This document shows positions 7,610 to 62,954 of a DNA stretch of 64,000 bases, in pieces. Position 1 is the stretch's first letter; the number at the start of each line of letters is the position of its first letter. The notes under the pieces were generated by a model. That model did not search any database. It had not been told where the DNA came from and saw only the letters and a program-made list of their open reading frames with translations. The stretch covers positions 62,001 through 126,000 of the forward strand of contig NW_024589874.1 of the NCBI RefSeq assembly GCF_018446385.1. Direction: 5' to 3'. A program made the translations under genes and the position numbers. This stretch comes from Zingiber officinale (taxonomy: Eukaryota > Streptophyta > Magnoliopsida > Zingiberales > Zingiberaceae).

Positions 7610-9564
7610 TGTTACGATTCGGCAAGTGCACGGATTCATCGTCAGTAATATATAAGATTGTCGAACCATAGGGATTGTTGATTAAGCACTAGAGATGTCG
7701 CAAAGTAAGTTATCTAGACGGTTGAAAGTTTGCTTTGGCGCTTGCAAACTAACGAGATTGATTGAAGAGGGAAAGAGAAGGATGAGATAATCGATCTTGG
7801 AGGGAATTGAGCTTTGGGAAATGGATTCAAGGATTTCAGTTTCGTTATGGTGGAACCTGATGCATCATGTTCTAACTTTTACTCATTGTCAATTAACATA
7901 CCTTCGCCGGAAGTTAAAGCTACTATCCATAAGTACTAATCAGAGAAGATCCCTGTGAAATCCTGTTACGGTTAACCCTATCACTAGGGCGCCTCGGTAG
8001 ATCACAAGAATACAAATCTAATCGGTATCATTAGGGATAGAGATAGGGGTTTGGTTTGGTCTCTTACTTCCTTGTGGAGAAGTTGCCTCTTCTTTCAAGG
8101 GAATATCCTAGACGTCCGTGAACGGGTTACCCCTGTCACTAGGGCCCCTCAGGTGTACAATCTAAGATTCTCTTTTTACGAAATTAGCAATTCCTACACA
8201 ATCAATTAACATGACAAGGCAACAAGTCTCATTCACATCAAATAGAAACGAAGCAAGAGAAATCATCCAACAAGGAAAGGCACGAACATGAGTCTTACAT
8301 CAAACCCTATCCAAAACTACTCCCTACATCCATAGAAAAGGAGATATACTCCATTGCGAGAGAGGAACAACCCCAAAACATAAAGTAATGCACACTTACA
8401 ACCCTTGATGTGAGAAGAAGGGGAAGAAGAGATGCTTGCCGAGGTTTCCAATGTCTTGGTGATGCCACCTTGCTCTGGAGATGGATGGAACGTCAAGAGA
8501 TGGAGGCGGATGAAGCTCTTGGGTTTCCCCCAAAGGGGAGAACCCTTTCCCAAGGAGAGGGGGGCGAAATCCCAAACCAAAGATCCTCCAAGAATAGGGT
8601 TCTTGACCCTTTTATACCTCCTCCAAGCTGTCCAAGAAAACCAGGATTATAGGGGTCCAGTAAACTGAGTTTTTCACCTATTAAACAAGGTTTTCTCATG
8701 ATTTAACCTGAACCAAAGTTGTAGCTCTTAAACTTATCTTCACTCTGATACTTTGATCAAGCCCTGGCTCCAAACAGGCTGAAAGTTATGGCGTTTCGAA
8801 GTTTGGTCTGCGGCCTGGGTGGAGGTCCAGTTGAACCTGCGGTTGGGAGGCACGACCGTGCCATTTAGCATGAGCAGGCAATTCTTTCTCTTTGTTGGAT
8901 CTGAAGCAAAGTTGTAGATCTTGAAGTTAGCTACGTTTGGTATAAAGAACATCCTAAAACTCCAACGAAGCGCAATGTTATGGACAAATTACTAACGGTC
9001 TGCAATCTGCCCAGAATTCAGCACAACCCTGTTTTGGCGTGGCACGACCCGTGTTCTTCGTCACATGGCCGTGTGGAATCCACATGGCCTCACATGGCTT
9101 CTTCTCGGGTTGAGTCACACGGCTATGTGAAACTCACATGGTCGTGGCCTTTTTCTTCTCTGCCAAGGTCACACGGCCGTGTGGATTCATACGGCCGTGA
9201 CCTTTCTCTCCTCTGGATCGTTGGCACGGTCGTGCCATTTGGCACGATCGTGTGTTGCTTGGCAATGGGGATAATGGCACGGCCGTGTGGGGGCACACGG
9301 CTGTGGCTTTCTTCGCATCAGGTGCTGGCACAGCCAAGACATGATAATGGCACGACTCAAGCTCCTGTGTGCGTTTTTGCTCCATTTTCGCTCCAAATAG
9401 CATCATATTAATCAAAACAAGCAAAGAGTAGATCTCCGAACAAAATATAATGGAAGTATGACATTTTAATGAAATAGGGTGCAATAAACATAGATTATGC
9501 TAATTAAATGCAAGTAGATGTGTGTCAAAGCATGCATAAATGATTATATAATCTACGCACATCA
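7610..9564 (-). repeat. 3' LTR of element D
   Basis: On the minus strand it starts TGATGTGCGTAGA at 9564 and ends AATCGTAACA at 7610, giving TG...CA ends. It matches 21527-23430 and the block B copy. A GC-rich stretch at about 9020-9350 holds many copies of the palindromic CACGGCCGTG type. Confidence 0.85.
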
Positions 9565-21526: not shown

Positions 21527-23430
21527 TATTATGATTCCGCAAGTGTACGGATTCATCATCAGTAATATATAAGATTGTCGAACCACAGAGACTGATGATT
21601 AAGCACTAGAGATGTCGCAAAATAAGTTATCTAGACGGTCGAAAGTTGTCTTTGGCGCTTGCAAACTAACGAGAGTGATTGAAGAGAGAAAGAGAAGGAT
21701 GAGAGAATCAATTTTGGAGGGAATTGAGCTTTGGGAAATGGATTCTAGGATTTCGGTTTCGTTATGGTGGAACTTGATGCATCATGTTCTATCTTTTACT
21801 CATTGTCAATCAACATACCTTCGCTGGAAGTTAAAGCTACTATCCTTATGTACTAATCAAAGAAGATCCCTGTGAAATCCTGTTACGATTAACCCCTGTC
21901 ACTAGGGCACCTCGGTAGATCACAAGAATACAAATCTAATCGGTTTGGTCTCTTACTTCCTTGTGGAGAAGTTGCCTCTCCTTTCAAGGGAATATCCTAG
22001 ACATCCATGAACGGGTTACCCCTGTCACTAGGGCCCCTCGGATGTACGATCTAAGATCCTCTCTTTACGAAATTAACAATTCCTACACAATCACTTAACA
22101 TGACAAGGCAACAAGTCTCATGCACATCAAATAGAAACGAAGCAAGAGAAATCATCCAACAAGTAAAGGCATGAACATGAGTCTTATATCAAACCCTATC
22201 CAAAACTACTCCCTACATCCATAAAAAAGGAGATCTACTCCATTGCGAGAGAAGAACAACCCCAAAACATAAAGTAAAGAATACTTACAACCCTTGATGT
22301 GAGAAGAAGGGGAAGAAGAGATGCTTACCGAGGTTTCCGATGTCTTGGTGATGCCTACTTTCTCTGGAGATGGACGGAATGTCAAGAGATGGCGGCGGAT
22401 GAAGCTCTCGGGTTTCCCCGAAGGGGAGAACCCTTTCCCAAGGAGATGGGGTGAAATACCAAACCAAAGATCCTCCAAGAATTGGGTTCTTGACCCTTTT
22501 ATACCTCCTTCAAGCTGTCCAGTAAAACCAGGATTACAGGGGTCCGGTAAACCGAGATTTTCACCCATTAAACCAGGTTTTCTTGTGGTTTACCCTGAAC
22601 CAAAGTTGTAGGTCTTGAAATTATCTTCAATCTGATACTTGGATTGAGCCCTGGCTCCAACCGAGACGAAGGTTATGGCGGTTAGAAGTTTGGTCTGCGG
22701 TCTGGGCGGAGGTCCAGTTGAAGCCGCAGTTGGGAGTCACGGTCGTGCCATTTAGCATTGGCAGACAATGCTTTCTATCAGTTAGATCTAATGCAAAGTT
22801 GTAGATCTTGAAGTCAGATATGTTTCGGTATAAAGAACATTCCGAAATTCCAACAGAGCGCAACGTTATGGAGAAATTACCAACGGTCTGTAATCTGCCC
22901 AGAATTCAGAACAACCTTGTTTTGGCGTGGCACGACCCGTGTTCTTTGTCACATGGCCGTGTGGAATCCACACGACTTCACATGGCTTCTTCTCGGGTTG
23001 AGTCACACGGCTGTGTGGAACTCACACGGCCGTGGCCTTTTTCTTCTCTGCCAAGGTCACACGGCCATGTGGATTCACACGGCCATGACCTTTCTCTCCT
23101 CTGGATCGTTGGCACGGCCGTGTGTTGCTTGGCCACGGGGATAATGCCACGGTCGTGTGTGGGGGCACACGGCCGTGGCTTTCTTCGTATCGGGTGTTGG
23201 CACGACCAAGGCATGATAATGGCACGACCCAAGCTCCTGTGTGCGTTTTTGCTCCATTTTCGCTCCAAATAGCGTCCTATCAATCAAAACAAGTAAAGAG
23301 TAGATCTCCGAACAAAATATAATAGAAGTATGACATTATAATGAAATATGGTGCAATAAACATAGATTATGCTAACGAAATGCAATAGATGTGCGTCAAA
23401 GCATACATAAATGATTATATACGCACATCA
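21527..23430 (-). repeat. 5' LTR of element D
   Basis: Starts TGATGTGCGTATA on the minus strand at 23430. The inner end (AATCATAATA) has lost the canonical CA. About 1.9 kb. It differs from the left LTR at many positions (by eye about one in eleven over the first 200 bp). It holds the same array of CACGGCCGTG-type palindromes at 22925-23220. Confidence 0.85.
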
Positions 23431-23672: not shown

Positions 23673-23717
23673 TAGGACGCTTCAGGAGGACTAATCGCCA
23701 AATGAAGCACTGAATCA

Positions 23718-35391: not shown

Positions 35392-35510
35392 AAGGTGCGC
35401 TGATGTAATCAATGTCGTGTCTCCTATGTTCTTGTCCCTTTCAAATTGCAGTATTGAATCAAAGGCAAAGGTTGTCAAAATTACTGCCTAACAGCAAGCT
35501 TAAAGCCGAA

Positions 35511-35795
35511 GACCGTCGATCGACGACGTTAAACCCCAGGGTCGGAGCGGCGACCATAAATACCCCGCGCTGAAAACTGTCGAGCGGTGACGTTAAACCC
35601 TAGGGTCGGAGCGGCGACCATAAATACCCCGCGTTGAATATTGTCGAGGGGCAACGTTAAACCCCAGGGTCGGAGTGGCGACCATAAATGCCTCGCGCTG
35701 AAGATCGTCGAGCGGCGATGTTAAACCCCAGGGTTGGAGCGGCGACCATAAATACCCCGCGCTGAAAACCGTCGAGCGGCGACGTTAAACCCCAG
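35511..35795 (+). repeat. 64-bp tandem repeat, about 4.5 copies, block A
   Basis: The unit begins ACCGTCGAGCGGCGACGTTA and contains CCCAGGGTCGGAGCGGCGAC then ATAAATACCCCGCGCTGAA. It lies between the end of integrase and the 3' end of the antisense gene, a region where Tat elements often hold tandem repeats. Confidence 0.92.
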
Positions 35796-39707: not shown

Positions 39708-40335
39708 GATAATACCAGGTCACACGAAAATTTTTCATCGGTTGTCGGAGTAAATCGGGAAGCGCTTGCGGTGGGCGGCCTAGAAGCCTAGCATCCCTTA
39801 GTAGTGAGTCCCATTTGAAGAAAAAAAAACCACTACAACAAAAAAGCTAATAGACAACTCTTTTAAAGCGTTGTCTTTGTGCCTGAAAAAGCGTTGTTAA
39901 AGGCACTGTTGTTAAAAGTCTGCTCAACGACAACGCTTTTAAAGCGTTGTCGTTTGTACCAAAGACAACGCTTTTGCAACGCTTTAAAAGCGTTGTCGTT
40001 TTATGCAAAGGCAACGTTTTGCAACGCTTTTAAAGCGTTGTTTTTGGTAGAAAAGACAACGCTTTTGCAACGCTTTAAAAGCGTAGTCATATTTTGCAAA
40101 GACAACACTATTACAACCCTTTAAAAGCGCTGTTGTTTTTTTACAAGGACAACACTTTTTGCAACGCTTTAAAAGCGCCTGCGGTGGGCGGCCTAGAAGC
40201 CTAGCATCCCTTAGTAGTGAGTCCCATTTGAAGAAAAAAAAACCCTGCAAATGTCGTGTATCTGAGAATCAAACCGTGGGTGCCAAGGTGACAACTGGAC
40301 GTCCTTCCACTAGATCGTCGCTGCAGGGGGCTATT
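39708..40335 (-). mobile_element. tRNA-derived SINE interrupted by a CACTA end, partly duplicated
   Basis: The minus strand from about 40335 has a SINE head with a box B-like GGTTTGATTCTC, then a body (GGGATGCTAGGCTTCTAGGC, CGCCCACCGCA) matching the SINE at 26851-27064, and a tail near 39708. A 343-bp CACTA-like fragment (39831-40173) interrupts it. The 70 bp of SINE on either side of the fragment are direct duplicates (39761-39830 and 40174-40243). Confidence 0.7.
39831..40173 (+). mobile_element. CACTA transposon terminal fragment
   Basis: Starts CACTACAACAAAAAAGC, the CACTA terminus also seen at 44695. It is followed by dense subterminal repeats of GCAACGCTTTAAAAGCGTTG in both orientations. 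The opposite terminus is missing; the fragment runs directly into SINE sequence. Confidence 0.7.
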
Positions 40336-42791: not shown

Positions 42792-44890
42792 CTAACAAGG
42801 ATGGGGAACTGAGTCCATTCATTTTGACCGACAATTAGGATGACCAGACTAGAGTTGCGCCCAACCATTAGTATTCTTAGAGTGCTTTTGCTGGGAAGTT
42901 GGGAGCTCAACCATAGGTCCGTCGAATACTTTAGACCGAGCAGCTATATATAATAAGACTTACCCCAACACTGCTATGCTGGGATCTGGAAGTTTAGACC
43001 GGATCTTATATTGGTCGGCACTAAACCCAATTTACCCTACCAACATTAGGGTTGTTTAGGTTTATTTTGTAAATCTTAGCATCAAGTGGATTGATAAATC
43101 CTCCCAATTTGCCCTGTTCTTAGGGTCGGTCATTTTTATACTAAAAGTTATATTATAACACTGATAAGATTGTGCCTGTAAGCCAAAATAATATTGTTGG
43201 AATCTCAAGGTTATTTTAATGTGATCAACAAGTTAAGTTAGGTCCTGTGGTATTTTAACCTTGTATCTAAGTGTGCAGGAGCTTCGGAGCACAGGGAGTC
43301 GAGCAATAGACGCAGCTAGTGAGAAGGATGACACGAAAGAGACCTGATGGGCTCGGTGCATCTGAGATACGAGGTGCTGCGGAAGATTACACGGGCGGAC
43401 GAGAAGGAGGCATGTAGCATTTAAGAGGGACGAGAAGCCGGAGTAGAAGGTTGCTCGAGAATGCCAAAATTGGGTTCGGGGTGAGCCTTATTTCGGTTGG
43501 TTGAAATCACCCAAGCGAGCGGAATCGGAGCGGAAGATCGGGACCGAGGCGAGCAGCACCGGAGCAGAGGGACCAGACCAAAAGTCAACTTTGTTGACTA
43601 TTGTGGTCCGGGCACCCGGAACTATTCCGGGTGCCCGAACCAATCCGGGCACCCGGAACTATTCCCGGTGCCCGAACCAATCCGGGCTGCTCGGAACCCC
43701 TTCCGGGTGCCCAGACCTGAAATTTTATCCTGATCACAGTCAAACACGATCTATGCGAGAAGGGATAAAGTTTTATTCCCTCACAGGCGCCTGAAACCCT
43801 TCCAGGCGCCCTGACCAAGGCTATATATATAGCCTTAGTCCAAGAAGCTCAATCAACACAAGCAATTAGTATTTCGAACACTTGTACGCTTTCTTTAAAG
43901 TTTTGCTTCTATTTTTCTGTGCGTCATTGTTACGATTCTGCAAGTGCACGGATTCGTCGTCAGTAATATATAAGATTGTCGAACCACAAGGTCTGTTGAT
44001 TAAGCACTAGAGATGTCGCAAAGTAAGTTATCTAGACGGTCGAAAGTTGGCTTTGGCACTTGCAAACTAACGAGAGTGATTGAAGAGAGAAAGAGAAGGA
44101 TGAGAGAATCGATCTTGGAGGGAATTGAGCTTTGGGAAATGGATTCAAGGATTTCGGTTTCGTTATGGTGGAACCTGATGCATCATGTTCTATCTTTTAC
44201 TCATTGTCAATCAACATACCTTCGCTGGAAGTTAAAGCTATTATCCTTAAGTACTAATCCCTGTCACTAGGGTGCCTCGGTAGATCACAAGAATACAAAT
44301 CTAATCGGTATCATTAGGGATAGAGATAGGGGTTTGGTTTGGTCTCTTACTTCCTTGTAGAGAAGTTGCCTCTCCTTTCAAGGGAATGTCCTAGACGTCC
44401 GTGAATGGGTTACCCCTGTCACTAGGGCCCCTCGGGTGTACAATCTAAGATCCTCTTTTTACGAAATTAGCAATTCCTACACAATCAATTAACATGACAA
44501 GGCAACAAGTCTCATGCACATCAAATAGAAACGAAGCAAGAGAAATCATCCAACAAGTAAAGGCACGAACATGAGTCTTACATCAAACTCTATCCAAAAC
44601 TACTCCGTACACCCATAGAAAAGGAGATCTACTCCATTGCGAGAGAGGAACAACCCAAAAACATAAAGTAAAGCACACTTACAAACCTTGATGTCACTAC
44701 AACAAAAAGCCTCATAGGCATCAGTGGAACAACAACAGTTTTAAGCAAAAACCGATGTCTTTGTGTATTTTATACCGATTTTTTCAAAAATCGGTGTCTA
44801 TGAGCGCAGATTTTCGCTCATAGATATCGATTTTTTAGGCGATGTCTATAAGCACCCTTTTTTCGTTAATAGACATCGATTTTAACAGCA

Positions 44891-45513
44891 GTTTTTAAAA
44901 CCCGGTGTTAATGAACCAAAATAAAATATTTTAATTTTCCCACCAGCCAAAATTTGCAACACTGTGAAGTTCTCTCCAAACCTAAATCTATATCGCGCCC
45001 CTTCCTCCGACCATCTCTCTCGCCTAAACCTAAACCTAAACCTCCGACCATCTCTCTCAACCTCATCTCCCTCTTCCCCCTTCCTAGATCGACGCCCCTT
45101 CCTCTCCCGATCAGGATCAACACACAACGCCCTTGCTTCTCCGTCCAACCACACAGCATCAACACACGGGCTGCTAAGATCACGCTGCTCTCGTTCGCCA
45201 CTCATCCAGTCCACCATTGGATTGGCTTCGTCAACCCTTTATTATCCAACTTTCCCCTCTCCTCCAGTCCTCCCATTCATCCTCCAAACCCTAGCCTCCT
45301 CGGATCTCTCCCATTTAGGATATTTTCTCAAAACCCTCGTCGTCTCCTGATTTGTTTCTCTTGCAGACTCTATCTAGCTCCACTTTCCCGTTTTCGTCCG
45401 CCAAGGTGATTCTTATCATTTTCTTTTTAGTTTTTTGGTGTGATTGATGCGTTTTCGTTGTATATTTTGATATTATCTTGTCTTGATCTTTTTTTCTCTT
45501 GATTCGAGATAGT
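44891..45513 (+). other. Pyrimidine-rich leader upstream of the captured helicase exon
   Basis: This interval is C- and T-rich (CTCTCTCGCC, CTCTTCCCCC) and looks like a captured promoter and 5' untranslated region of the helicase gene. It includes a short CCTAAA repeat at 45023-45040. Open frames here lack domains. A TTGCAG-AC junction near 45362-45367 and AGGTGATT at 45403 could be leader intron borders. Confidence 0.4.
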
Positions 45514-45629
45514 ATGGGGGAAGCCAAGGATAATGATGTTTACGAGAAGGAGCTCCTGGAGTACGAAGAGGAGGAAGAGAAAGCTCCGGATTCGGTCGCT
45601 GCCAAGGTTTCTGGTGAAGCAGTGAAAAA
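45514..45629 (+). pseudogene. Captured UAP56-type RNA helicase, exon 1
   Basis: Starts MGEAKDNDVYEKELLEYEEE and continues KAPDSVAAKVSGEAVKK, the highly conserved plant UAP56 N-terminus. It ends at a GTAAGA donor exactly where the protein would continue GYVGIH. UAP56 is the DEAD-box helicase of mRNA splicing and export. The next fragments of the same gene are at 47387-47692, with an MGDG synthase fragment placed between them. Confidence 0.88.
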
Positions 45630-45733
45630 GTAAGAATGGATTTTTATCAGTTCGTGCGAAGAAAGACGAGAAAAAGTCAGAAAAGCAGGCCAAGGATCCC
45701 CTTCAATTAAACCCTAATTGAAATCCCGCCACC

Positions 45734-46482
45734 ATGACTCCCTCTTCCGTCGCCAAAGAAGACCTTCTCTTCCTCCTCCCCTTCGACTCCCTCGTCGCTC
45801 GGATCCCCTTCTTCACCTCTCCTTCTCCTTCCTCCCTCTCTGCTTTTCCTCGACGTTGTTCCTTTCCCTCGCATACTAGAAGCTGCAGCCGGCCTGCCGC
45901 CTTTGCCTCACTTTCCCCCGGTTCCTCCGAGCTCCATCGCCTCTGGAGCCACTTCAACCGGTTCGTGCATTTCCACAGCGAGCCTCGTGCCCCCATCGGG
46001 GTTGCCTCCGCCGGCCTCTCGAACGACGAGATCCGTCTGGAGGATGAGAGCCCTCTCATTGCCGAGGACAACGACGCCCCCATTAACGGCGTGGCAGAGT
46101 ATGAGAGGCCGAAGAAGGTTTTGATTTTGATGAGTGATACTGGTGGTGGGCATCGCGCGTCGATGGAGGCCATCAGGGATGCCTTCAACCAGGAATTCGG
46201 CGATGAGTACCAGGTGAATTAGAAATTTAATTAGTGGTCTTGTCTCCAAGTGGTCCAGAAAGTAGCTTTTTCCCCTTGCTCTATGGATCAAAATCTTGTG
46301 CTAGTGTAGGTCTTTGTGACTGACTTGTGGACGGAGCATACGCCCTGGCCATTTAATCAATTACCGAGAAGCTACAATTTTTTGGTAAAGCATGGTGCTT
46401 TGTGGAAAATGACGTACTATGGTACCGCACCTCGCTTGGTGCACCAACCACATTTTGCGGCAACTTCAACGTTTATTGCTGG
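45734..46482 (+). pseudogene. Captured monogalactosyldiacylglycerol synthase, exons 1-2
   Basis: Exon 1 (45734-46213) begins MTPSSVAKEDLL, has a Ser/Arg/Pro-rich chloroplast-transit-like N-terminus and ends with KKVLILMSDTGGGHRASMEA and FGDEYQ, the signature start of the MGDG synthase glycosyltransferase domain. The intron 46214-46309 has GT...AG borders. Exon 2 (46310-46482) reads [20 protein letters not shown] and [13 protein letters not shown], ending FIA. The rest of the roughly 500-residue enzyme, including the UDP-galactose site, is absent. MGDG synthase makes the main galactolipid of plastid membranes. No stop interrupts the two exons. Confidence 0.93.
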
Positions 46483-47386
46483 GTTAGAATGTTTCCTTGT
46501 TTTTATCTTTCCGACACCTTGTTTTTATTCTTTTTCAACATTAAAATAGTGTTGGATAACTTCTAGATGTGTGTGTTGGGAAAATTTGTTGTTGTTATGA
46601 ATTAGTATCAATGTTCCTTAAATAGTTTAGCTGTAAATTTATCTTTCACTTTGGCTTAAAACGATGAATTCCAATATTATCTTATCCTCAATCTCTTTCT
46701 TTGTGTTGGCTAACATGAGTTCTTATCCATATTACAGAGAGAAGTGAAAATATTCTACTTGTTGACCTTCTCTCTGATTGTTTCACACAAACCTGAGAAT
46801 AAATAGTTTGATGCGGTTTTTGACTACTGAAAATGGATATACCCTTTAATTCAGTGAGAAATGTTGGATCAGAGTGAATCATCAACTTATATTTGTAGTT
46901 AAGATCTTCTCAGAGACATTTTTTAGTCTGTTTATCTCTATTATTTGGCACAATCAAAAGCCACAGTCACTAAACACTAGGAAGAACTATGTGCCTTGGT
47001 CAGTGATGGTGCAAAAAAGAGGATCATTATCATTATCATGCCTAGTAATTTCAATTAAAGTCCATGCTTCTTTTATCTTAGGTGTATGAGGTAATCAGTG
47101 AAATTATATGGAAGTGGTTTTTTTCAATTAAAGTACTAGAACTATAGACTTGTCCTCTGCTCATTTTACTTTCTTAATTTGAGAGCAAATCAGGAGAACC
47201 CTATTTAAATTTAAATAGATATCTCGTTTCATCATCGAGTGGATAGATACATAAATCTTTATGGTATTTTGTAGGTAAAGATCACTTGCATGTTTCTCAG
47301 TTTGGTGGAGAATAAGGTAAACCTTTCCATTAAAGGATCCAGAAGATTATTTTTTACTTACTGGGGTACTCCTCAATTTTCAGCAG
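46483..47386 (+). other. Intron-like sequence between captured fragments
   Basis: AT-rich, no coding segment recognised. It includes the junction from the MGDG synthase intron back to UAP56 gene sequence; its exact position is not visible. The 47270-47340 part may be a degraded exon. Confidence 0.5.
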
Positions 47387-47692
47387 TACAACATGAATGT
47401 ATTCCACAAGCTATTCTGGGAATGGATGTTATTTGTCAAGAAAAGTCTGGAATGGATAAAACGGCGGTTTTTGTACTTTCTACTCTTCAGTAAATTGAGC
47501 CAACAGCAGGCCAAGTTGCTGCACTTGTGATGTGTCATACAAGAGAATTGGCCTTCTAGGTTTGACTTTATTTTTAAAGAATGGTTTATGTTGATTTTGG
47601 TGGTTCTAGAATTTTGATTCATATTTATATTTGTGCAGATTTGCCATGAGTTTGAGCGATTCAACACGTACTTACCAGACATCAAGATTGCT
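47387..47692 (+). pseudogene. Captured UAP56-type RNA helicase, two inner exons
   Basis: The exon 47387-47559 reads [20 protein letters not shown] then [15 protein letters not shown], the Q-motif/motif I region of UAP56. The Walker A Gly is changed (GMGKT to GMDKT), and two stops (a TAA after TLQ, a TAG at the exon end) break it. The next exon, from 47639, reads ICHEFERFNTYLPDIKIA, then loses similarity at 47693 where the myosin-derived part begins. Splice borders (CAG at 47386 and 47638, GT at 47560) are kept. Confidence 0.92.
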
Positions 47693-47758
47693 TATTGTAT
47701 ACTGTACTTGTTGTCCAGTAACTTATCTTTGAACTATTAATATTATATCGTGATATAG

Positions 47759-48019
47759 GTTTTACATCAGAAACCAAAGAAGACACTGAAGGAGATAACC
47801 AAAGATTTATGCCCAGTTGAGACCACTTATAAATATTCAAAGTTTCAGTCATTTAGATTGTCAGTAACGAACTGTTTTTTTGGTTTGATTTTGTTTTCAG
47901 GTTCTTAGCATACAACAGTTATACAGAATCAGTACTATGTACTGGGATGACAAGTATGGCACGCAGAGTGTTACATCAGAGGTCTAATTTCACTTAGATA
48001 TGTTCTTAAGTTGCATTCT

Positions 48020-48056
<37 letters not shown>

Positions 48057-48657
48057 ATGCATAATTTTCATATTCACAATGGAATAGCTAAGTGTGGTAC
48101 CAACTCAGTTTGTGTGGGGACAAAATAGAGAGCAATTAAGGCACCAAGACGGGGCCAGTCTAGTGACGCAATAATGGTGTGTTTCTAGCATCTAGTAATA
48201 TTCTTGTTGACATAACCAACTGATGGAAGACAATTGGGAATATATTGGCCTATACCAAGTCTTCCATCTCATAGCTTGCCTTTGGGACAAATGGTATCAA
48301 CCTTATTTTGCAATGACTTCAAACTGTTGTGTTGCTCTTTTAGGTCTTTCCAAGTAATGACGTAGAGTTTTTTTTTTCCTTTTCAATTTTATAGATCATT
48401 TCAAGTATGAGACTTGTGATGGTCGAGGGCTCAAATAATTCTTTCTTGTTAGATGATGATTCCAGGTAGGCCTTAAACTTTTTCTTCCTCTGTTCTACAT
48501 ATTAGTTACTATAAATTAGATTTACATTCTCCTTTGATGCAGCATTCCATTTTTGGTCGATGATATCTCAAAGTCAATGACAGAAATAGATATAGCAGAT
48601 ATAGATCCATCGCCTTTCCTTTGTCAGAGTTCGGGCTTTGCATTTTTGGCATATTGA
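47759..48657 (+). pseudogene. Captured class XI myosin, last four exons (globular tail end)
   Basis: Exons at 47759-47815 (VLHQKPKKTLKEITKDLCP), 47901-47981 ([27 protein letters not shown]), 48395-48465 (IISSMRLVMVEGSNN, SFLLDDDS) and 48543-48657 (IPFLVDDISKSMTEIDIADI to a TGA). The frame is continuous across all three GT...AG introns. This is the C-terminal end of the plant myosin XI cargo-binding tail (DIL region). Motor, neck and most of the tail are absent. Myosin XI moves organelles along actin. Confidence 0.92.
48022..48053. repeat. TA dinucleotide microsatellite
   Basis: About 16 TA units in the second myosin-derived intron inside the CACTA element. Confidence 0.95.
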
Positions 48658-49659
48658 AAGTAGCAAATGTTACCCTCCTGTTTATCCACTGCTAATCCCC
48701 CTGTGCCTGTGCATAAATTTCCGCCTTCCATCCTGTCCATATCATCAAGTAAACAGGGTAGTATTATAGTAGATATAATATCATTCTTTTATGATATGAT
48801 CTACACATGCACATTATAAACAATATACAATAAGCAATGATGATATATGGTGAATTTACTTCTTTACTTATTTCTTGTTTTACTTGATGTATTATTGAGC
48901 ATCCTCATCCATATATTATAGGCCTTGGAAATTATATACAGTTATATATTGACCATAATATTAGTAATTTGATTATCAAGTTGATCTCATAGTTCGGTTG
49001 GTTCTAAAGGAAATTTATTCTTTGTCACTTTTTATACATACAAGAGTTTTGGATTGTTTAGGGGAGAGAATTACAAGTCAGAAAAGCTCAAGTTCATTAG
49101 TGGATATATACAGTTGTTTGTTTCACCTTTCTTGATCTCAATGCACACCAATCCCTTAGTTTAGGGAGGTAGTACATTTTGTTGAGTTGTTGTTACAAAT
49201 TAATCCCTTATATTTATGTGATAATTGATGAATATTTCTTTTTTTAAGCATTTCAGTTAGTCATCTTGTTACCTGATGCCCTTACTGCTTTTTCAACTAT
49301 GATTTTTTGTCTTGGTTTACTAATATATTATTTATGTGTTTTTACAGTTTACAAATCTCAAGTACTCCAGAGTTGAAATTGATGAAGTACGGATCGAGTG
49401 AGTTGAATGCATGTTAGATTACATTTGAAGTGCGGTTATACCTTGATGTGTTGTTAAAAGAATGTTCTACCTTGATTTTGATATCTATTAGCTAGCTTTT
49501 GATGTAAAAAGAATGTTTGGGTATTTTATGGATATTGTTGTAAGAAGATTATTTATATAATTTGTGAATATTTATGTATTTTATGGATATTGTTGAATGA
49601 AGAATATTTGTATAATTTGTGAATATTTGTGTTTTTTTTTATTATTGTCGGTTTTTCAT
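48658..49659 (+). other. Unassigned interior of the CACTA element
   Basis: Mostly AT-rich sequence, probably myosin 3' flank followed by other material. 49348-49401 looks like a small exon (acceptor TTTTTACAG, then FTNLKYSRVEIDEVRIE and a TGA); its source gene is not recognised. 49560-49630 has a direct repeat of TTTATGGATATTGTTG and ATAATTTGTGAATATTT. Confidence 0.5.
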
Positions 49660-51070
49660 TGTTTCGGAAATCAAATTGTTAAAAAATATCCATATTACAT
49701 CGGTTTTCCACCGCTGCCAAAACTGGTGTTATTAACATACAATATTACATCGGTTTTACACCGTTGATGAAACGGTGTCGTTAAATGATACTACACCGGT
49801 TAATAACCGATTCGAAGACCGGTGTCGTTAAGTGATACTACACCGGTTTTAAACCGATGTCTAAAATGGCAGACCTTTTACATCGGCTTCATAGACATCG
49901 GTCGAAAATGAAATAGACACCGGTGGAAAACCGATGTCTATGAGGGTTTTTGTTGTAGTGTGTGAGAAGAAGGGGAAGAAGAGATGCTTGCCGAGGTTTC
50001 CGATGTCTTGGTGATGCCTCCTTGCTCTAGAGATAGACGGAACGTCAAGAGATGGCGGCGGATGAAGCTATCAAGTTTTCCCCGAAGGGGAGAACCCTTT
50101 CCCAAGGAGAGGGGGCCAAATCCCAAACCAAAGATCCTCGAAGAATAGGGTTCTTGACCCTTTTATACCTCCTCCAAGCTGTCCAAGAAAACCAGGATTA
50201 CAGGGGTCCAGTAAACTAAGTTTTTCACCCATTAAACAAGGTTTTCTCATGATTTAACCTCAACCAAAGTTGTATCTCTTGAACTTATCTTCAATCTGAT
50301 ACTTGGATCAAGCCCTGGCTCCAACCGAGCCGAAAGTTATGGCGGTTCGAAGTTTGGTCTGCGGTCTGGGCGGAGGCCCAGTTGAACCCGCGGTTGGGAG
50401 GCACGGCCGTGCCATTTAGCATGGCCAGACAATGCTTTCTCTCTGTTGGATCTGAAGTAAAGTTGTAGATCTTGAGGTTATCTACGTTTTGGTATAAAGA
50501 ACATCCTGAAACTCCAACGGAGCGCAAAGTTATGGACAAATTACTAACGGTCTGCAATCTGCCCAGAATTCAGCACAGCCCTGTTTTGGCGTGGCACGAC
50601 CCGTGTTCTTCGTCACACGGCCATGTGGAATCCACACGGCCTCACACGACTTCTTCTCGGGTTGAGTCACATGGCTATGTGAAACTCACATGGGCGTGGC
50701 CTTTTTCTTCTCTGCCAAGGTCACACGACCGTGTGGATTCATACGACCATGACCTTTCTCTCCTCTGAATCGTTGGCACGGCTGTGTCATTTGGCACGGC
50801 CGTGTGTTGCTTGGCTATGGGGATAATGGCACGGCCGTGTGGGGGTACACGGCTGTGGCTTTCTTCGCATCGGGTGATGGCACGTCCAAGACTTGATAAT
50901 GGCACGACCCAAGCTCCTTTGTGCGTTTTTGCTACAGTGCCTCTACTTTTAGTTTATTGCTTTTATTTATTTTATGCAAGTGCTATTCTGATAGTTCGAG
51001 AACGGTAGTTTTCTTTTACTTTTGCAGGGTTATTCAACCCCTTTCTAGCCAGCCAACGTGGTCCAACAAG

Positions 51071-51082
51071 TGGTATCAGAGC
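51071..51082 (+). promoter_or_regulatory. Primer-binding site of the SIRE-like element, block B
   Basis: TGGTATCAGAGC, two bases after the LTR end, identical to 23661-23672. Confidence 0.88.
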
Positions 51083-51127
51083 CAGGACGCTTCAGGAGGA
51101 CTAATCGCTGAATGAAGCACCGAATCA

Positions 51128-51581
51128 ATGGCCGGACCAAGCATCTACCCGCCGAAATTCGAAGGGAAATTCACTAGCTGGAAAAAGCGAATGCAGGTAT
51201 TTTTTTAAAACTGAATTCGATTTATTATTAATAATGGAGTTTGGTTTTATAGCACCAGAAGGTATAGAAAAATACCAATGGACGAAAAAGGAGCAGGCCG
51301 ACTACGTGGCAAATGGCAAGGCAGAATTCCATCTGCTGAGCGTTCGTCCACCACAAGAAGTCAACCGGATCGACAACTACGGCTCAGCAAATGAACTGTG
51401 GGAAAAGTTCCTTGAGCTGCATGAAGGAACGTCCGAAGCCAAGCTAGCAAGACGGAATTTACTTCGTAACCAGCTCACCAACCTGCGACTTGAAGAAAAC
51501 AGAACAGTCGCACATCTACACTCGAATATTAAGGAAATCATCACCAGACTTTCGAATCTCGGAGAAAAGGTAAGTAACTGA
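51128..51581 (+). pseudogene. Short gag of the SIRE-like element, block B
   Basis: Starts MAGPSIYPPKFEGKFTSWKK. One extra T in the run at about 51200-51207 shifts the frame; the rest is open from 51234 (MEFGFIAPEGIEKYQW, LWEKFLELHEGTSEAKLARR, HSNIKEIITRLSNLGEK) to a TGA at 51579. Block A keeps the T-run in frame but has a stop and a later frameshift, so together the copies show a roughly 150-residue ancestral gag fragment. As in block A, no pol follows. Confidence 0.75.
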
Positions 51582-54290
51582 GATTCGCTAAGGTATTCAC
51601 AATTCATTTCCTAGAAATTGTATATAAATGAAGAATATCTTTTGTTGTGCTACTCTTGGCCGGTATTCTATACTCGATCGGTTATTTATACCCGACCAAG
51701 ACTTTACTATTATAAATATGCCAGAAACCTTGCCAGGTTGAAGACCTTTATGCTCGATCTACTTTCCATACTCGGCCGATCTATTGAGCTCGGCCGATCA
51801 TACCTTATCGACCGAGATTAATCAGTCGAGCGTATATAAACACTATTGCCCGGTAGACCTTCCCTCGGTCGGTCGTAGGCTAAGGATCGTGCGAGATTAA
51901 ATGCCTCTGTGCTCGGCCGGTCTATTGAGCTCGGTCGGTCCTACCTTATCGACCGAGATTAACCATTCGGGTGTATACAAATACTATTGCCCAGTAGACC
52001 TTCCCTTGGTCGGTCGTATGCTAAGAATCGTGTGAGACTAAATGCCTCTGGGCTCATCCGGTCTATTGAGCTCGGCCGGTCCTACCTTATCAACCGAGAT
52101 TAACCAGTCGGGCGTATGTAAGCCTTCTGGACAACTTAAGGCTAACTATTTCTACGTTCGGTCGGTCTCTTCCACTTGGCCGTTCTTTGCCTGCCAATCT
52201 CATATGCTCGGCCGGTCCATTATGTTCGATCGGTCTCTGCCTACCCAACGTGTAGCAACACTCTTACCAAGTCAAACCTTTTTCCCGTCTTCCTAATTGT
52301 TCCCTTTTTCTCTCCTACAAAGGGTCCACTTATCATAACCCATATCAGTCGATATAATTTTAATTATTTTATTTAAATTATTGTACTTGCAATTCTCTAA
52401 TTTATTAGTGAATTTTCCAAAGTAAATACTCAATGAGTGTGGGCCTTGGAGTAGGAGTCGTCACAGGCTCCGAACCAAGTAAAGCCAACTAACCAACTTG
52501 TGTCGTTGTTTTCTCTACTTGTTTTTATTTCGTTGTGTTTATCTCTGATTTTGTTTACAAAAAGTGAAAAAGCCACGAGTGCTATTCACCTCCCCCTCTA
52601 GCACGTCTCGATCCTACACTGACTGCCGATTTCACTCGAGTTTAGATTTATGTTCGAGTTATTTTATTTTTTTTGTTCTACTGCCGCTGTTTATTATTTT
52701 CTTTCCTTCATTGAATCAATGAGGTTTTGTAATAATAGTATAACTATTATCTTGTGTATATTAGTATGTTCATATGTTCATGCATACATATATGTTATTT
52801 TGTGATAATAGTATAACTGTTAGAGCTCTAACCTAGGAGGAGCTAATTTTTGAACAATTAGACTAGGAGTTGTTCCAATCATATTTTCATGTTTATTAGT
52901 TTCAAAATATGATTTCAAAAATTATAGTATTTTAATCTCATAAAGAATTTTGTTTTACTTCTTATCAAGTTGAAAAGGACTTAGCTTAAGATCTACCATA
53001 GATAACATGTTCCTATAGATCTAGGTAGCTAATATCTCATAAAATATCAATGGTATAACTTTCTTGTGTTTGTAAAACATAGAATGGTGTGAGATGTTTA
53101 GGATTACTACCTCTAAATTCTACGATGACTAAGGACTGATCATAAATGTGAAGATGGTAGTGATGGTCATCAAAGTTGTGAAGATGTGAAGTTAGGGTTC
53201 CGGTGAGTTAGAAAATCTCAAGGAATTGTCGGATCTAGATCACTATTCTTCCTCTTCATTCTCTATCACGCACCTCACTGATGGTGAAGATAATAGCCAA
53301 ACCTTCAATGGATGCAAAAATGAAGATGGACAATGTAGGAAAAGCCCTAGACCTCAATGAATGGGAAGCATCAAGCTCCGGTGGCTAGTGATTCTGGTGG
53401 AATAGTAATCTCCTCGCCCCTGTAGAAAATTAATGATCCTTTTCTCGTTACTGTAGCTTCTCATTTGAATCCCATCATATCTGAATCGATGGTCCAGAAT
53501 GTTTCAGATCTTGATCAACGAATAGATTAATTTAGATCTAGATCAAAGGCTCCAAATCTAGGCAATGGTCATGATCTACTCTCTCTTTGATTTGGATGGA
53601 CTAGATCATGATGGATGGCTTAGATTCCTTCAGATCTTAGATGAACAATTTAGATCAATAAAAATTAGTCCTCCCTAATTTCCTAAAAAATCAATTCCAT
53701 AAATTAGCACATAATTCCATAAAATAATTTAAATCATATCAAAACTCTAAAATGAATCCAAACTCATGAAATATAATATAAATGCGAATTTAAACACAAA
53801 ATCAACTAAAAAAAAATGATTATATGATCCTAAAAAATATGATAAAATGATAGTTATTAGGCAACCACCACAAATTCTATCCCAACAATTATTTTTATTA
53901 TCTAGTATCGGACTTCTACTACTTCTGCTTATATTTTGAATTTTAATCCATCTATGCTTTATTATTGTAGCAAAAAGTGGAACCTGCCACCCCAGTGGCT
54001 CCACATGGTCGGTTCCACCACTATCTATGAAGAGGTAAATTGGGAAGCTGTAGTTGGCTAATGCGAGGGAGAACTTTTCCTCGGCTTTGTCGAACTATCT
54101 GTGCTTTATTATGCTTTGACTTGAAGTTGACATATTACTTGATATGTCCTAGACTTAATTACATTTATTTATTCTTGACTTTCATTTCGATATATGATTT
54201 GAGTTTGCTTGTTTAACTATCCAATTATGGTCTAATTTAAGCTTATTATTAACCTCCTTATTTCTTTACTATATATCATATTGCTTTTTT
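51582..54290. other. Gene-free sequence collinear with 24170-26850
   Basis: Contains the tandem repeat described separately, then LTR-like and AT-rich sequence. No supported gene or RNA. It matches block A with scattered small indels. Confidence 0.5.
51770..52130 (+). repeat. Tandem repeat, 140-141-bp period, three copies (block B)
   Basis: Copies are marked by GAGCTCGG at 51786, 51927 and 52067. The unit is as in block A but with fewer internal deletions, so the 140-bp form is probably ancestral. Confidence 0.82.
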
Positions 54291-54507
54291 CTTGTCTTGC
54301 CCTTGGGGATATAGTACAGTGTAAGGGCATCACGTTGTCACCCAAGGACCAGCGATTAAATCCCCAGTAAAGACGCATTTGTATGTATTTTTCCATCAAA
54401 TGAGCGCGTAACCATGGGATGCTGGGCTTCTGGCTGCCCATCGCGAGTACTCTCGATTTACCTTAGCGACTGGTAGAAAACTTTCATGGGGCATGGCTGG
54501 TTCCTCC
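54291..54507 (+). mobile_element. tRNA-derived SINE, block B copy
   Basis: Same head and body as 26851-27064 (TATAGTACAGTGTAAGGGC, GATGCTGGGCTTCTGGCTGC), in the same flanking sequence, so it is the duplicate of that insertion. Confidence 0.72.
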
Positions 54508-57500
54508 AAATTCGATGTTACCTAATTCATTTTTTAATGTCATATTTCTTTGTACCCATTTTTTATATATAAAAAATGGGGAGAAAAAAGTGAGGTAAAA
54601 GAATTATTTCCCCAAACTTAATATTCCTTATCTGATTAAGGAGGAGCAAAATTTAAGGGGAATCATATTTTTAAATTTTTTTTTGATACATGAAAAAGGA
54701 GGAGAGAAATAAAAAAAAGTGAGATAAAAGAATTATTTTCCCAAATTAATATTCCTTATATGATTAAGGGGAGCAAAAATTAGGGGGAGACATATTTTCA
54801 ATTATTATATTCATGTATGACTGCACTAACTCTATCTTCTTTCATGCATTGAATATTAATCTAAATTTCAAACTTATTTTTGATTATTGATTACTAATTT
54901 GAATTTAGTTTTTATATCATCAAAAAGTGGGAGATTGCTTGTACTGAGTGCACAATATTTAATCTAGAGTTTTGATATACGACTAAGGTTAAAATTAGAT
55001 TAGTTATGATCTAACTAGTTGTGTCAAGTTTGTAGGTGCAGGTTACTTGATAGATATTAAAAGTCCTGGTTGTGAACCAGGAAGCGACTAAGTCATAGTG
55101 AATATAAGCATCCAAAGTCCTAATTTGGATCAAGTATGAGTTAAGTCTTGGTTGGAGACCAAACAACAAATTCCTTGCTAGATACTAGGTGAATCAAGTC
55201 CAAATGATTAAGGATTGGTAGTTAAATTTGTAACTTGGGGCTAGGTGAATCATGTCCAAGTGATTAAGGCTTGGTAGTAAAATTTCTAGCTAGGTGCTAA
55301 GTGAATTAAGTCCAGGTAGAGTCAACTAAGAGCTGAAGGCTTGGCAAACAAATATAGGTGGAAGCAATTGGGAGCTGTGGCTTGGCAACTCAATCTAAAT
55401 GAGTCGGCTGGAGGCTAAACATCTAGTTCCAACATAATTGTAACTTTACATTCTATATCATACTCATTACGTGTAACCACTATAGTGAAGCATTTTCGTC
55501 AGTTCTAGTCAACCAGATGGAGTCCGGAGGTGACTGGCTGGTATTAACTCTCAACGAAAGGATTTAACAAGGTCTAGGCGATCACACAAGTCTAGGCAAC
55601 CAGAGTGTACAGGTGACCGGAGTAGCTTCCAGGCGACCGGGGGATGGTGTTATCCACAATTAGAATAAAATGATCATGATGAAGATTGGCCTTTACCTAG
55701 GTGACCGACGGGGTGTACAAGCAACCTGAGAGCTTTGTTAACGGTATATTATTGATAGAAGTTGTGGCCATGTCAGTATTTGTATAGGCAATCAAAAAGG
55801 TTCTGAGTGACTGATGGAGTATATATAAGGAGTTTCAAAGCAGAGCTTCAACACAACTCATCTAGTATCAACACTCTTGTTTTGATACTCTAAGTTCTTC
55901 TTCTCCTTTTGTACTATGACACATTGTAACTTGTGCTTTATTTCTGATTAGCAATATCTAGAGTAACAATTTCATTAATTTTAGTGTTGCCTTATGTGTT
56001 ATTATTGTGATTTAATTTTTATATATTTTTTCTGAAAGGTTTCCCCACCTAAGAGAAATTAGAAATAAGAATCACATTTTTTATATTATTGTGTATGCTT
56101 ACTTGTGATTTGATTGATAAACTTGCATGCTAAAATTGTTAGCTTAATTTACTGCATATTTACTATTTTGTCTTACTTGATTGAATCAGTCTAAAGTTAA
56201 ATTTATTTTTGTCGTGCTAACTCTGATTGATTCAACTATTTATTTTTACTATTAGTTCATTTTTAATTTGTAACATTATTCACTCCCCTCTAGCATTGAT
56301 TTTGATCCTATATGATAGATATTTTATTACTTGTTGAAAGTCGTGCACTTGTAGATTTCGCCTATGACCAGCAAAGCCGACTCCCTTCAATACTTAAGTG
56401 AGGATAATCTTCGAAATAAAATTTACCTTCTCTAAGGGGAAGGGCTTATGCTTGAAAAGAAAGTGTCTTCCGCAAGGGAAGAGCTCTAGCAAGCTGTGAA
56501 AGCATGTGCCTTCTGTTGAGGAAGGGATATTTGGTGGAGCAAGGATGAAAAATTAGAATAGTGGTGGAGCCGATCAATTGCTACGTTGAATGGAAAATAC
56601 TCATAGAATTTGTATTCAGTAGAGAGCATGCATGGAAGAGAGAACCTTCTTCTTTGCTAACTTCCTTTATCTTATATTGGCATGAAGCTTCCTTCCACAT
56701 GGACTCCTCCATGCCTTGTCCATCATCTCATATGTGTGTTGCATTCAACTCCCTACATGGAAAGAAGTATGGTTGTTATTTTCTCTTATATTAGACAACC
56801 TCTTACACGTCTAATAAATACTAGTGAGGGTACAAATTCTCTTGCTTGCCCAGTTCGCCGACACTGTTGCCATCACCTCCCTTGGTTAACCTTCACTATA
56901 GCCATGTTTAGTTCACTGCTCACTATTTAATTAGCTCCTGGTCTAAGAATGACTAACAGCGATAATGAAGTAAAGTAGTCTGTGAAACTATAGTCCACGA
57001 GGGATATCTACAGGTGGGGATAATCTCGTAGCTTGAGGGACAACACCACCTAAGAGGATATTAGCTTGAGCAGTGTTTATAGAATTGATAAAATAAGATC
57101 ATCGAAGGAGTTACAATCTAGAGGAGACTTCAGCAAGCTAGAAGGCTTTTGCGGCCTGGGATAGTTGAGGTCCAGGGGAGAGATCTCCAAAGATAGGGAG
57201 ACTTTCACAGCCTGTGATAGTCGAGGTACAGGGGAGATATGTAAAGGCAGGGAGGCTTATGCAGCCTGGGATAGTTGAGTTCAGGAAAGATCTCTAATCC
57301 TGTCTGAGTGCAAAGTTGATGGATGCTGGGGACGTGGCGCTCCTGTTGACTGGTCGAAGACTCCAAAGACGGATCCCTTGCCGCCGTGGACCTGCAAACA
57401 CAGTGCCGAGCCAGGGAAGGATTCCCCGGTGATGGCCCTCCGACGCTGAAGTCAAACCTCTGGCAGAAAGAAAGAAAGAAGTAGAGTAGAAGCGAGAACT

Positions 57501-57642
57501 GTAGCTACAGTAGAGATGTGTGCATCCCTCCATCGGCGTCTAGGGGTCCTTATAAAGGGCTCCCCAGAGGCGCGTGCACGCTCCCCGTACACACACCTGA
57601 ATCCGAGTCAAGAAGATGTAAGAAGTTGGATGACAACACACA
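54508..57642. other. Copia 3' end, LTR-like sequence and gypsy leader, block B
   Basis: Collinear with 27065-30197. The copia polypurine tract ATCAAAAAGTGGGAGATTGC is near 54918, followed by the LTR-like stretch with TATA-like GTATATATAAGG near 55818. The GGGAGACTTTCACAGCCTG repeats lie at 57140-57290. No gene is supported. Confidence 0.5.
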
Positions 57643-58837
57643 GTGACGCTCTCTCAAGAGGAACTTGACGCGCTTGTGCAGGCGCGAGCGACCAAGATGA
57701 TAAAGCAGCAACAGAAGGCGCTAGCCGAGCGGCTGGCAGAACAAGCAACTTCAGCATCTGGAGGCCGAGCAGCGCACGAGGACCGTCCGGAACAGCTCTC
57801 CAAATGGGGTCAAAACAAAGGTCCAATCGGTACGCAAGTAGAGGGCCGCCCACGCCGATCTCATTCCACCGGGCATTGTTCCAGACACCCTCTGAGATCG
57901 CGCAAGCAAATCGAGACTGGTCTTCCTCAGACGAAGCCCCCGCTCGGGATGCAAGAAAGGGCAAAGCGCCCCGAGCTGACTCATCACACAAGCGAATCAA
58001 CCGTCAATTCTACGAAGCAATTCTGCAGGACCCTCTGCCAAGGCACTACGCACCCTTGGCGATCGGCGAGTACAACGGATCGACAGACCCAGACGACCAC
58101 CTCGGCAAGTTCGACAATGCGGCAACCCTTTATCAGTACACGGATGGAGTTAAGTACCGAGTCTTCCTCACTACTTTATCCGGCTCCGCACAACGCTGGT
58201 TTCGAAGGTTGCTGGATGGGTCGATTCAAAGCTTCAAGAACTTTAGGACGACCTTCCTCCACCACTTCGCGAGCAGCAGGCGCTATCAAAAGACCAGCGT
58301 CAGTTTGTTTTCTATGAAGCAAGGGCCGAGAGAGACTCTTCGGACATACATTCAACACTTTAACCAGGCAGCCATGGACATCCTCATGGTCTCGTCCAAA
58401 ACAATGATGCACGCCTTCACCCAAGGGCTCATCGACGGGGACTTCTTCCATTCTCTCATCAGGAAGCCGCCCCGCGATTACGACCATATGCTAAAGAAGG
58501 TCAGCGAGTATATCAACATGGAGGAAGCTCAGGCGGCCCGAAGGAAAAAAGCGCCATCAGAATCGGCTGCCATGCCGATCGGAGACCAACAATCAGCCAT
58601 CAGCCTCCAAGAGGGCCCCGAGCCGATATGGCACGCCCAAAGCAGGAAGCAAGGCCACACGTCGTCCAGCACGTGGCGGCCGAAAGACCAAGGCCCAAGG
58701 GAAAGGTATGGACTCCTATGTTCTGTACCATCCATCAATCCGCCAACCACAACACACGAGACTGCCACGGAGTCCCCGCAGTCGCTCAGCTGACTCCCAA
58801 GAGTTATCGCCGCCAATTGCCTTCCCCCGAACTGTGA
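57643..58837 (+). pseudogene. gypsy gag, block B
   Basis: Starts near 57643 with TLSQEELDALVQARATKM (the block A ATG is ACA-GTG here). A frameshift near 57840 moves to the frame with IGEYNGSTDPDDHLGKFDNA and QRWFRRLLDGSIQSFKNF, which is open through EYINMEEAQAARRK. A second frameshift near 58570 (one base lost relative to block A) leads into the C-terminal CTIHQSANHNTRDC region ending PSPEL. The core gag domain is better kept than in block A. Confidence 0.87.
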
Positions 58838-59147
58838 TATAGGTGGCCGAGCACCGAACGGCGAGTGGAGATCAGGCGGTCAACCGAGCGGCGGCATCAA
58901 CATGAAGACGACCGCGCCCCAGCTTCGCGTGGACAAGTCGGGCACTCCGCTCAGGAGGAGGAGAACAGAAACATTGTCGCTCGGGGAGAGATCAACATCA
59001 TCGCTGGTGGGCCGACCAGCGGTGACTCCAACCGAGCGTGCAAGACATACGCGCGGCGTCTGGAAATCCACGCGGTAGGCTGCAGCCAAGAAAGGGCGAG
59101 CGGACCAGAGATCCGCTTCGGTCCCAGAGATTTAGAGGGAATCTAAG

Positions 59148-59677
59148 TACCGCATGACGACGCCCTCATCATCCGAGCAGTAATTGCTAACTACACAATC
59201 CACCACATATTTATCGATACAAGGAGTTCAGTCAGCATCATCTTTAGGAAGGCATTCGACCAACTCCAGATAGACCAGACCAAGCTGCTGCCGATGACGA
59301 ATCCATTGTACGGGTTTACAGGTAATGAGGTCCAGCCGATCAGCCAGATAAAGCTGGCCATATCCCTCGGAGAAGAGCCGCTCCGAAGAACAAAGACGAC
59401 TACCTTAATCGTTGTAGACACCCCGTCCGCTTACAACGACATATTGGGTTGACTAGCCATTAATTAGTTCCGAGCAGTTGTCTCAACATTTTGCCAGAAA
59501 ATTAAATTCCCGGTTGAAGATCGAGTCGGAGAAGTCAAAGGGAATCAACTGGCTGCTCGGCGCTACTACGTCGAGACGGTAAAGGCGGAGTCTAAGTCCG
59601 CCCGAAAGGCCCCTTAGATCGAGGTAAACACTATAACCGAGAAACCCCCTACCTTAGTTTATGAAGAAAAGGAGGAA
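59148..59677 (+). pseudogene. gypsy protease region, block B
   Basis: The active site reads IDTRSS, having lost the catalytic Gly. A TGA shared with block A follows DILG at 59450, with a further stop near 59464. The linker FCQKIKFPVEDRVGEVKGNQ is kept. Confidence 0.78.
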
Positions 59678-61726: not shown

Positions 61727-61734
61727 AAGAAAGC

Positions 61735-62818: not shown

Positions 62819-62954
62819 CCGTACCGAGCTGGCTGAAAGGTGTGCTGATGTAATCGATGTCGTGTCTCCTATGTTCTTGTCCCTTTCAAATTGCAGTATT
62901 GAATCAAAGGCAAAGGTTATCAAAATTATTGCCGAACGGCAAGCTTAAAGCCGA

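Follow-up and report, generated by a model that had tools for sequence, protein, structure and literature searches.

A complete, non-autonomous CACTA transposon of 5,266 bp lies at positions 44695-49960 of a 64,000-nucleotide stretch of ginger (Zingiber officinale) DNA, here called the window, which is part of contig C93 in a 3.09-Gb assembly of 211 contigs. It lacks a transposase and carries instead fragments, introns included, of the host genes for UAP56 helicase, monogalactosyldiacylglycerol (MGDG) synthase and myosin XI, together with a 19-bp MADS-box remnant which, judged from the sequence, is the mark of an earlier cargo that was overwritten. The element is a Pack-CACTA, and so of a known kind, with an unusually full capture record; comparison with its sister copies makes it very probable that it was re-loaded serially and that its capture stages are nested in one another. 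Labels L009 to L037 denote sequence stretches fetched from the assembly, and C-numbers its contigs.

The element begins with CACTACAACAAAAA at 44695 and closes with TTTTTGTTGTAGTG at 49960; its 31-nt inverted ends are 90% complementary, and TGT stands on both sides as a 3-bp target-site duplication (TSD). Repeats D1, D7, D10, I6 and I7 occur near both ends, D1 in five copies at 49697-49940, with more copies of D7 and D10 close to the ends. Its insertion is shown by empty paralogous sites within the same window: the flanks 44255-44694 and 49961-50933 are joined at 7973-9381 with a single TGT, and the flanks 44336-44694 and 49961-50933 likewise at 21942-23253. Past mobility is thus seen from the TSDs and the empty sites. 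A sequence-only reading of the window had described these ends, the perfect TGT duplication and the subterminal repeat arrays, and had proposed a CACTA element with captured host gene fragments; ends, TSD, empty sites and the cargo matches given below bear this out. Allowing up to two mismatches, CACTACAACAAAAA occurs six times in the window against 0.72 expected, a count reached in none of 100 shuffles. A further such motif lies at 39831-39844 on the plus strand and is preceded by AAC; within the window, only the element studied here supplies a matching 3' end.

All three host gene fragments are in sense (plus) direction, and the UAP56 fragment is split in two by the MGDG piece. MGDG exon 2 matched Pfam family PF06925 (E = 3.7e-12) and the MGD1 structure 4wyi (E = 7.9e-33). 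For UAP56 exon 3, read up to its stop, the best match was DDX39/UAP56 (E = 6.8e-15), while its Pfam DEAD match (E = 9.4e-4) fell short of the family cut-off. The myosin piece was identified via the resident locus, aligned at 95%, where the joined exons gave DIL (PF01843, E = 7.2e-11) and matched plant myosin-17 (E = 1.6e-43). Pfam returned nothing above cut-off for UAP56 exon 1 alone, MGDG exon 1 alone or the 22-residue UAP56 exon 4 piece, and a phmmer search of the PDB with UAP56 exon 1 gave no useful match. MADS exon 1, as found in sister copies, was recognized as SRF-TF (Pfam, E = 1.2e-24). The captured pieces measure 0.8-2.2 kb with their introns; the four main captures, for which orientation was read, are all sense, three of them gene starts and the myosin piece a gene end. 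The sequence-only reading had reported exons of the three genes in one orientation with intact GT/AG borders. Orientation and most splice borders stand; the UAP56 part needs qualifying: it is split, exon 3 has two in-frame stops (TAA at 47491-47493 and TAG at 47557-47559), and exon 4 is truncated, with the native donor lost. Right on the element, that reading was without the MADS remnant, the nesting of MGDG in UAP56, the sister copies and the stage series.

The exons do not form one ordinary locus, the case in which the sequence-only reading would have failed, as three parents were located at three separate loci, besides a fourth for the MADS piece. The UAP56 parent is L034 (C11:137.39 Mb), whose positions 1290-3434 are contiguous in L026 and L027 at 94.5-95.0% identity; L033, at only 78-85%, was rejected as a paralogue. 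The intron after exon 2 of L034 seems to start with GC, not GT (GAAG/GCAAG). Myosin XI derives from L031 (C1:104.91 Mb; partner C2:117.71 Mb), with 95.2% identity to the window and 96.9-97.7% to L010, L013, L019 and L028. The MGDG parent was taken from the C11/C12 pair among the high-identity matches: L030 (C11:24.55 Mb; partner C12:29.76 Mb) has later exons of the gene downstream, and is matched at 97.3-98.2% in six copies and at 97.8% over 1,309 bp from 45716 in the window; the left MGDG border was taken from the partner allele L037. L029 was rejected at about 70% identity over the query, its exon 2 agreeing in 55 of 57 residues yet in only about 53% of third positions. The MADS parent is L035 (C13:2.855 Mb; partner C14:2.975 Mb; 2.4 kb around exon 1 examined), at 95.8-96.2% in L013 and L019. 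Because parental genes come in pairs on C1/C2, C11/C12 and C13/C14, the assembly seems to hold two haplotypes.

The search for sister copies by terminal sequence, which the sequence-only reading had suggested, found at least 40 matches to the first 301 bp of the element (window included; 299-301 bases, 93-100% identity; best 40 of 3,079 candidates). The cargo was listed for 20 other copies, fetched as 10-kb stretches reaching as far as 9 kb downstream from the 5' end. Nine of these have both ends, flanked by identical 3-bp TSDs (L009 TGT, L010 AAG, L011 AGC, L013 ATA, L016 ACT, L019 CCT, L026 AAT, L027 TAA, L028 TAT). The flanks of L018 differ (CAA/CGA), and for 10 of the 20 (L012, L014, L015, L017 and L020-L025) an intact 3' end was not matched within the fetched 10 kb. 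When the flanks of L010 were joined, every one of the 40 places scored matched across the junction, with the full 304 bases covered in 36 (best 40 of 2,583 candidates), so that the L010 target is a repeat whose other copies are empty there. The window insertion itself, with both flanks, is found also at C18:42.95 Mb (L009; 98.0% over 7,250 bp and 98.3% over 2,621 bp).

These copies fit a nested series. L017, L022 and L025 share the 5' end of the window element and hold a transposase region (Transposase_21, E = 4.9e-76, in L025, the one such copy run against Pfam). In other copies a 2.15-kb UAP56 fragment stands where the transposase region was; L020 (interrupted by 0.9 kb), L024, L026 and L027 carry UAP56 without MADS, MGDG or myosin and retain part of the element's 3' interior. 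In L021, which has no myosin, MADS exon 1 replaces UAP56 intron 1 to exon 2, and the 3' interior is retained. That interior is replaced by myosin in L013, L015, L019 and, over the part read, L014, all with UAP56 and MADS. Finally, MGDG replaces MADS in the window element, L009, L010, L011, L012, L018, L023 and L028. Breakpoints within one stage agree to a few bases, except for later indels or stretch ends. The MGDG types retain 19 bp of the MADS piece adjoining MGDG, which places MADS before MGDG. The 3' interior of L026, L027 and L017 presumably encodes a piece resembling the C48/Ulp1-like peptidases found in plant transposons; Pfam gave nothing above cut-off for it.

We hold it highly likely that the captures took place in the order UAP56, MADS, myosin, MGDG. 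Noncoding divergence from the parents was 0.045-0.057 for UAP56, 0.019-0.025 for MADS, 0.011-0.023 for myosin (with the first myosin exon counted as noncoding) and 0.013-0.023 for MGDG; by this measure UAP56 alone would stand out as the oldest capture. A tree built on the UAP56 parts common to 17 copies and the parent (L014 dropped for missing data; L032 lacking 503 of 1,132 positions) agrees with the proposed series: the myosin-bearing clade received 99 and the MGDG clade with L032 76, L021 was sister to the myosin-bearing clade at 61, and the UAP56-only copies grouped at 49.

Other relatives carry other cargo. L016 (8,651 bp, TSD ACT) has a kinesin piece instead (E = 4.7e-19). L036 and L032 (C5:68340300-68354300) together make up a composite of 13,017 bp (TSD TCG), whose left (5') half, with a MYB-like piece (E = 1.7e-8), comes from another element, and which holds a nested CACTA (TSD GTA) itself bearing a kinase piece (PF00069, E = 2.2e-9). 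We take one further piece of the nested CACTA to be uracil-glycosylase-like and another, in the L036/L032 block, to be CDC48-like, Pfam giving nothing above cut-off for either. C17:5357081-5357954 and C18:6317201-6318074 match the first 873 bases of L032:760-2300 at 98% and 97%, and this pair is probably the parental MYB-like gene of the composite. Match positions 904/931-1215 of the same stretch recur at many other genome places at 94-98%, so this part probably belongs to another repeat family.

The MGDG-bearing types reach tens of copies. All 32 scored MGDG matches were accounted for by 14 full-length element copies (window included), 13 cut copies that all start at the same inner base, the C11/C12 pair and three paralogue matches. 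These types amount to 27 element copies, of which eight full-length and one cut were read and the others classed by coordinates. A myosin match lay on the same contig for each of the 27 (best 40 of 55 myosin candidates), at a spacing of about 2 kb or less from MGDG in 25 and about 12-13 kb in two (C159 and C2:93.9 Mb). The MYB-like/CDC48-like block stands ahead of the cut MGDG copies, in full in 12 and in part in one (best 40 of 494 candidates). At 92% identity or more, MADS was found in at least 13 element copies and two parental alleles (best 40 of 130 candidates); eight of these 13 have a myosin match among the same best 40 of 55, and of the other five L021 alone was read. When coordinates were compared with the gene pairs, a counterpart on the partner chromosome was not evident for 23 of the 27 MGDG insertions, C93/C18 being one pair and C19/C20 assigned to neither; on coordinates, this suggests that the MGDG-type insertions postdate the parting of the haplotypes.

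All four captures deleted resident sequence. The MADS-UAP56 junction shares ATTTTA, and the other junctions carry filler. At the left MGDG junction the filler has an 11-bp match to UAP56 exon 3 and another of 11 bp to MGDG exon 1. The filler at the right MGDG junction shares 12-13 bp with UAP56 sequence nearby; in sister copies it also includes 10-11 bp of MADS that continue directly from the remnant (parent position 1004 after 1003). A 12-bp stretch of the filler at the right myosin junction corresponds to the myosin piece. Compared with 2,000 random window stretches, the longest filler matches had p = 0.09, 0.011 and 0.0115; for the MGDG junctions, adding the two longest matches gave p = 0.016 and 0.020 (500 stretches). 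We propose that the element would be moved in trans by a related transposase, and that each capture would occur during repair of a break arising inside it: by switching templates at short homologies the broken end would pick up a copy of part of an unrelated gene, and rejoining would cost resident sequence, after which the repaired element would move and multiply. That each capture was such a break repair with later spread seems to us reasonably probable. We give an even chance to the wider picture of a CACTA lineage whose interior is overwritten again and again by sense host-gene copies in break repair while its outer ends are kept, gene starts on the left and a gene end on the right yielding a gene-like chimera each round, so that the stages would be a record of template switching and not of fusion.

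The most serious alternative is fusion of neighbouring insertions, proposed for Pack-CACTA by Catoni et al. 2019 and described in the gene-capture passages of PMC8903248 and PMC13317346. Two related elements flanking a gene piece would lose their facing ends and move as one with the gene, which accounts for host DNA between the 5' and 3' parts of one family; such series are reported in maize and rice (PMC8903248), and in L036/L032 same-direction element ends lie close together beside the left half of another element. Yet the model requires that each of the four parents was flanked on either side by copies of the then-current element and that the breakpoints left a gap in four of four cases and an overlap in none, and it does not predict patchy filler. 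In the parental stretches, which reach 0.6-1.7 kb past the captured part (for L030 and L031 both strands were compared, for L034 and L035 the plus strand), no CACTA match was found beside that part, although excised copies would leave little trace. Filler patches and deleted resident sequence therefore favour template-switch repair, by gap filling or FoSTeST, as the likelier account, and fusion we regard as possible though rather unlikely. By contrast, the view that chance or misassembly placed the ends of two different elements around ordinary gene pieces has virtually nothing left to recommend it. The window is repeat-rich and contig C93 is not chromosome-scale; the sister copies nevertheless refute it, since the same insertion with both flanks stands on C18, the same structure and end pair recur at other sites with other TSDs, and the TSD and empty sites are exact.

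The cargo might also be a working chimeric gene, with MGDG exon 1 spliced to the myosin exons to encode a 267-residue protein with an MGDG N-terminus and a myosin tail end. Among five splicings tried for the window element, MGDG exon 1 with the four myosin exons (UAP56 left out) was the only in-phase joining, open over 267 codons to the native stop position with GT/AG borders, and the sense orientation of the four main captures, with three gene starts and a myosin gene end, also suits a gene. The other four (UAP56 exon 1-exon 3, MGDG exons 1-2-UAP56 exon 3, UAP56 exon 1-myosin and MGDG exons 1-2-myosin) ran into early stops, and no obvious splicing gave an open frame across all three host genes. 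The single transcript joining the three fragments that the sequence-only reading envisaged is possible, because most splice borders are intact. The in-phase joining would have to skip three exons (MGDG exon 2 and UAP56 exons 3 and 4). In the window, L009 (the same insertion) and L010 this frame stays open to the end of the third myosin exon; in L011, L012, L018 and L028 it meets an earlier stop (n = 7). UAP56 exon 3 has its stop at the same site in all 11 copies examined, from UAP56-only to MGDG types, so the UAP56 frame had most likely been lost by the time the later pieces came in. MGDG diverges from its parent alike in coding (0.018-0.029) and noncoding (0.013-0.023) parts of nine copies, five of which have MGDG stops or coding indels. 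Stops in these divergence counts were called base by base, the window myosin 'stop' at 2436 being a double change to Tyr. A working chimera thus appears very improbable, and we are confident that the cargo is passenger DNA and not a maintained chimeric gene.

Several observations weigh against serial re-loading by break repair with passenger cargo. The filler test was devised after the matches had been seen and includes one p value of 0.09; at the UAP56-myosin junction, no filler match rose above chance. Because the noncoding divergences of MADS, myosin and MGDG overlap, the order after UAP56 rests on the nesting and on tree nodes of 61-76. The stage with UAP56 and MADS and without myosin is a single copy, L021, whose 3' end was not seen and which may have arisen by recombination; exchange of halves between elements also occurs, as L036/L032 shows, and in the transposase-bearing copies the 3' end was not matched in the fetched 10 kb. 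Coding divergence of UAP56 (0.014-0.040) is lower than its noncoding divergence, and the distinct MGDG changes number 43 nonsynonymous (four of them stops) and 27 synonymous, where neutrality predicts 2.5:1; constraint in the parental lineages could explain both.

Table 1. Features of the CACTA element and its empty sites in the window
Feature	Position	Strand	Basis or remark
Target-site duplication TGT, left copy	44692..44694	.	single TGT in empty paralogous sites
CACTA 5' end (terminal inverted repeat (TIR) 44695-44725 and subterminal repeats)	44695..45160	+	94-96% to L017 (transposase-region relative)
UAP56 left part: 5' untranslated region (5'UTR), exon 1 (45514-45629), intron 1 start	45168..45651	+	91.6% to parent L034
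19-bp MADS-box remnant, one mismatch in window	45658..45676	+	junction alignments
Filler; 11-bp patches shared with UAP56 exon 3 and with MGDG exon 1	45677..45704	+	
MGDG synthase fragment: 5'UTR end, exon 1 (45734-46213), intron 1, exon 2 (46310-46482), part of intron 2	45705..47024	+	
Filler with patch matching nearby UAP56; in sister copies also MADS bases adjoining the remnant	47025..47075	+	
UAP56 right part: intron 2, exon 3 (47387-47559, two stops), exon 4 start (from 47639)	47071..47700	+	95.3% to L034
Myosin XI fragment: last four exons with introns, stop codon, 3' flank	47694..48762	+	95.2% to parent L031
Myosin exons in element	47759-47815, 47901-47981, 48395-48465, 48543-48657	+	
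20-bp filler; 12 bp in sister copies match the myosin fragment itself	48763..48782	+	
CACTA 3' end (subterminal repeats 49697-49940, TIR 49930-49960)	48783..49960	+	
Target-site duplication TGT, right copy	49961..49963	.	
Empty paralogous target site (repeat copy without element)	7973..9381	+	
Second empty paralogous target site	21942..23253	+	

Elsewhere in the window, a direct duplication of 12.3 kb (23525-35794 and 50935-63239, 93.7% identity) contains long reading frames and probably represents two copies of one long terminal repeat (LTR) retrotransposon; the frames at 32499-33596 and 57804-58793 we take to be retroelement pol and gag, respectively.

Gene capture by cut-and-paste transposons is unsettled, fusion and template switching having both been proposed (PMC8903248, PMC8277862). 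In this one genome a single family preserves its stages in succession, together with four parents that have been located and junctions resolved to the base; on this record the capture models give different, checkable predictions. Capture order and likely mechanism can be read from the sequence, as sister copies preserve earlier steps. Cargo can be replaced and not merely added, so that the present cargo may conceal its predecessors, and gene-like fragments can multiply to tens of copies and lead gene annotation astray.

A partial search of the open-licence PMC literature found no description of the combination of UAP56, MGDG and myosin cargo; the comparisons that follow refer to the passages on gene capture in the papers cited. 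Pack-TYPE elements of Arabidopsis, rice and maize are non-autonomous, with transposon ends, TSDs and coding DNA often from more than one locus (PMC8903248), all of which the ginger element shares; it differs in that its pieces are 0.8-2.2 kb long with introns, that later ones overwrite earlier ones, and that four parents are located. A maize Pack-PIF cluster gained 163 bp and then 58 bp in two steps, and most CACTA Pack-TYPE elements in rice and maize are low copy (PMC8903248), in contrast to the 27 copies of the MGDG-bearing ginger types. Chenopodium CACTA elements hold host gene pieces, one of 80 bp, in the 5' region upstream of a retained transposase domain; host gene pieces are thus common to both, and no replacement series is met in those passages (PMC8978399). 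Animal Pack-TIRs, for which gap-filling and FoSTeST models are given, resemble the ginger element in capture from elsewhere (other chromosomes), short homologies at the breakpoints and amplification after capture, whereas ginger shows several capture rounds within one plant CACTA lineage (PMC8277862). Soybean Tgm-Express1, a 5.7-kb CACTA, holds pieces of five host genes unrelated to one another and, as in ginger, retains exons and introns; it lies within a gene, where its chimeric spliced transcripts were demonstrated, whereas the ginger element is known here from DNA alone and its family keeps earlier capture stages as sister copies (PMC1947982).

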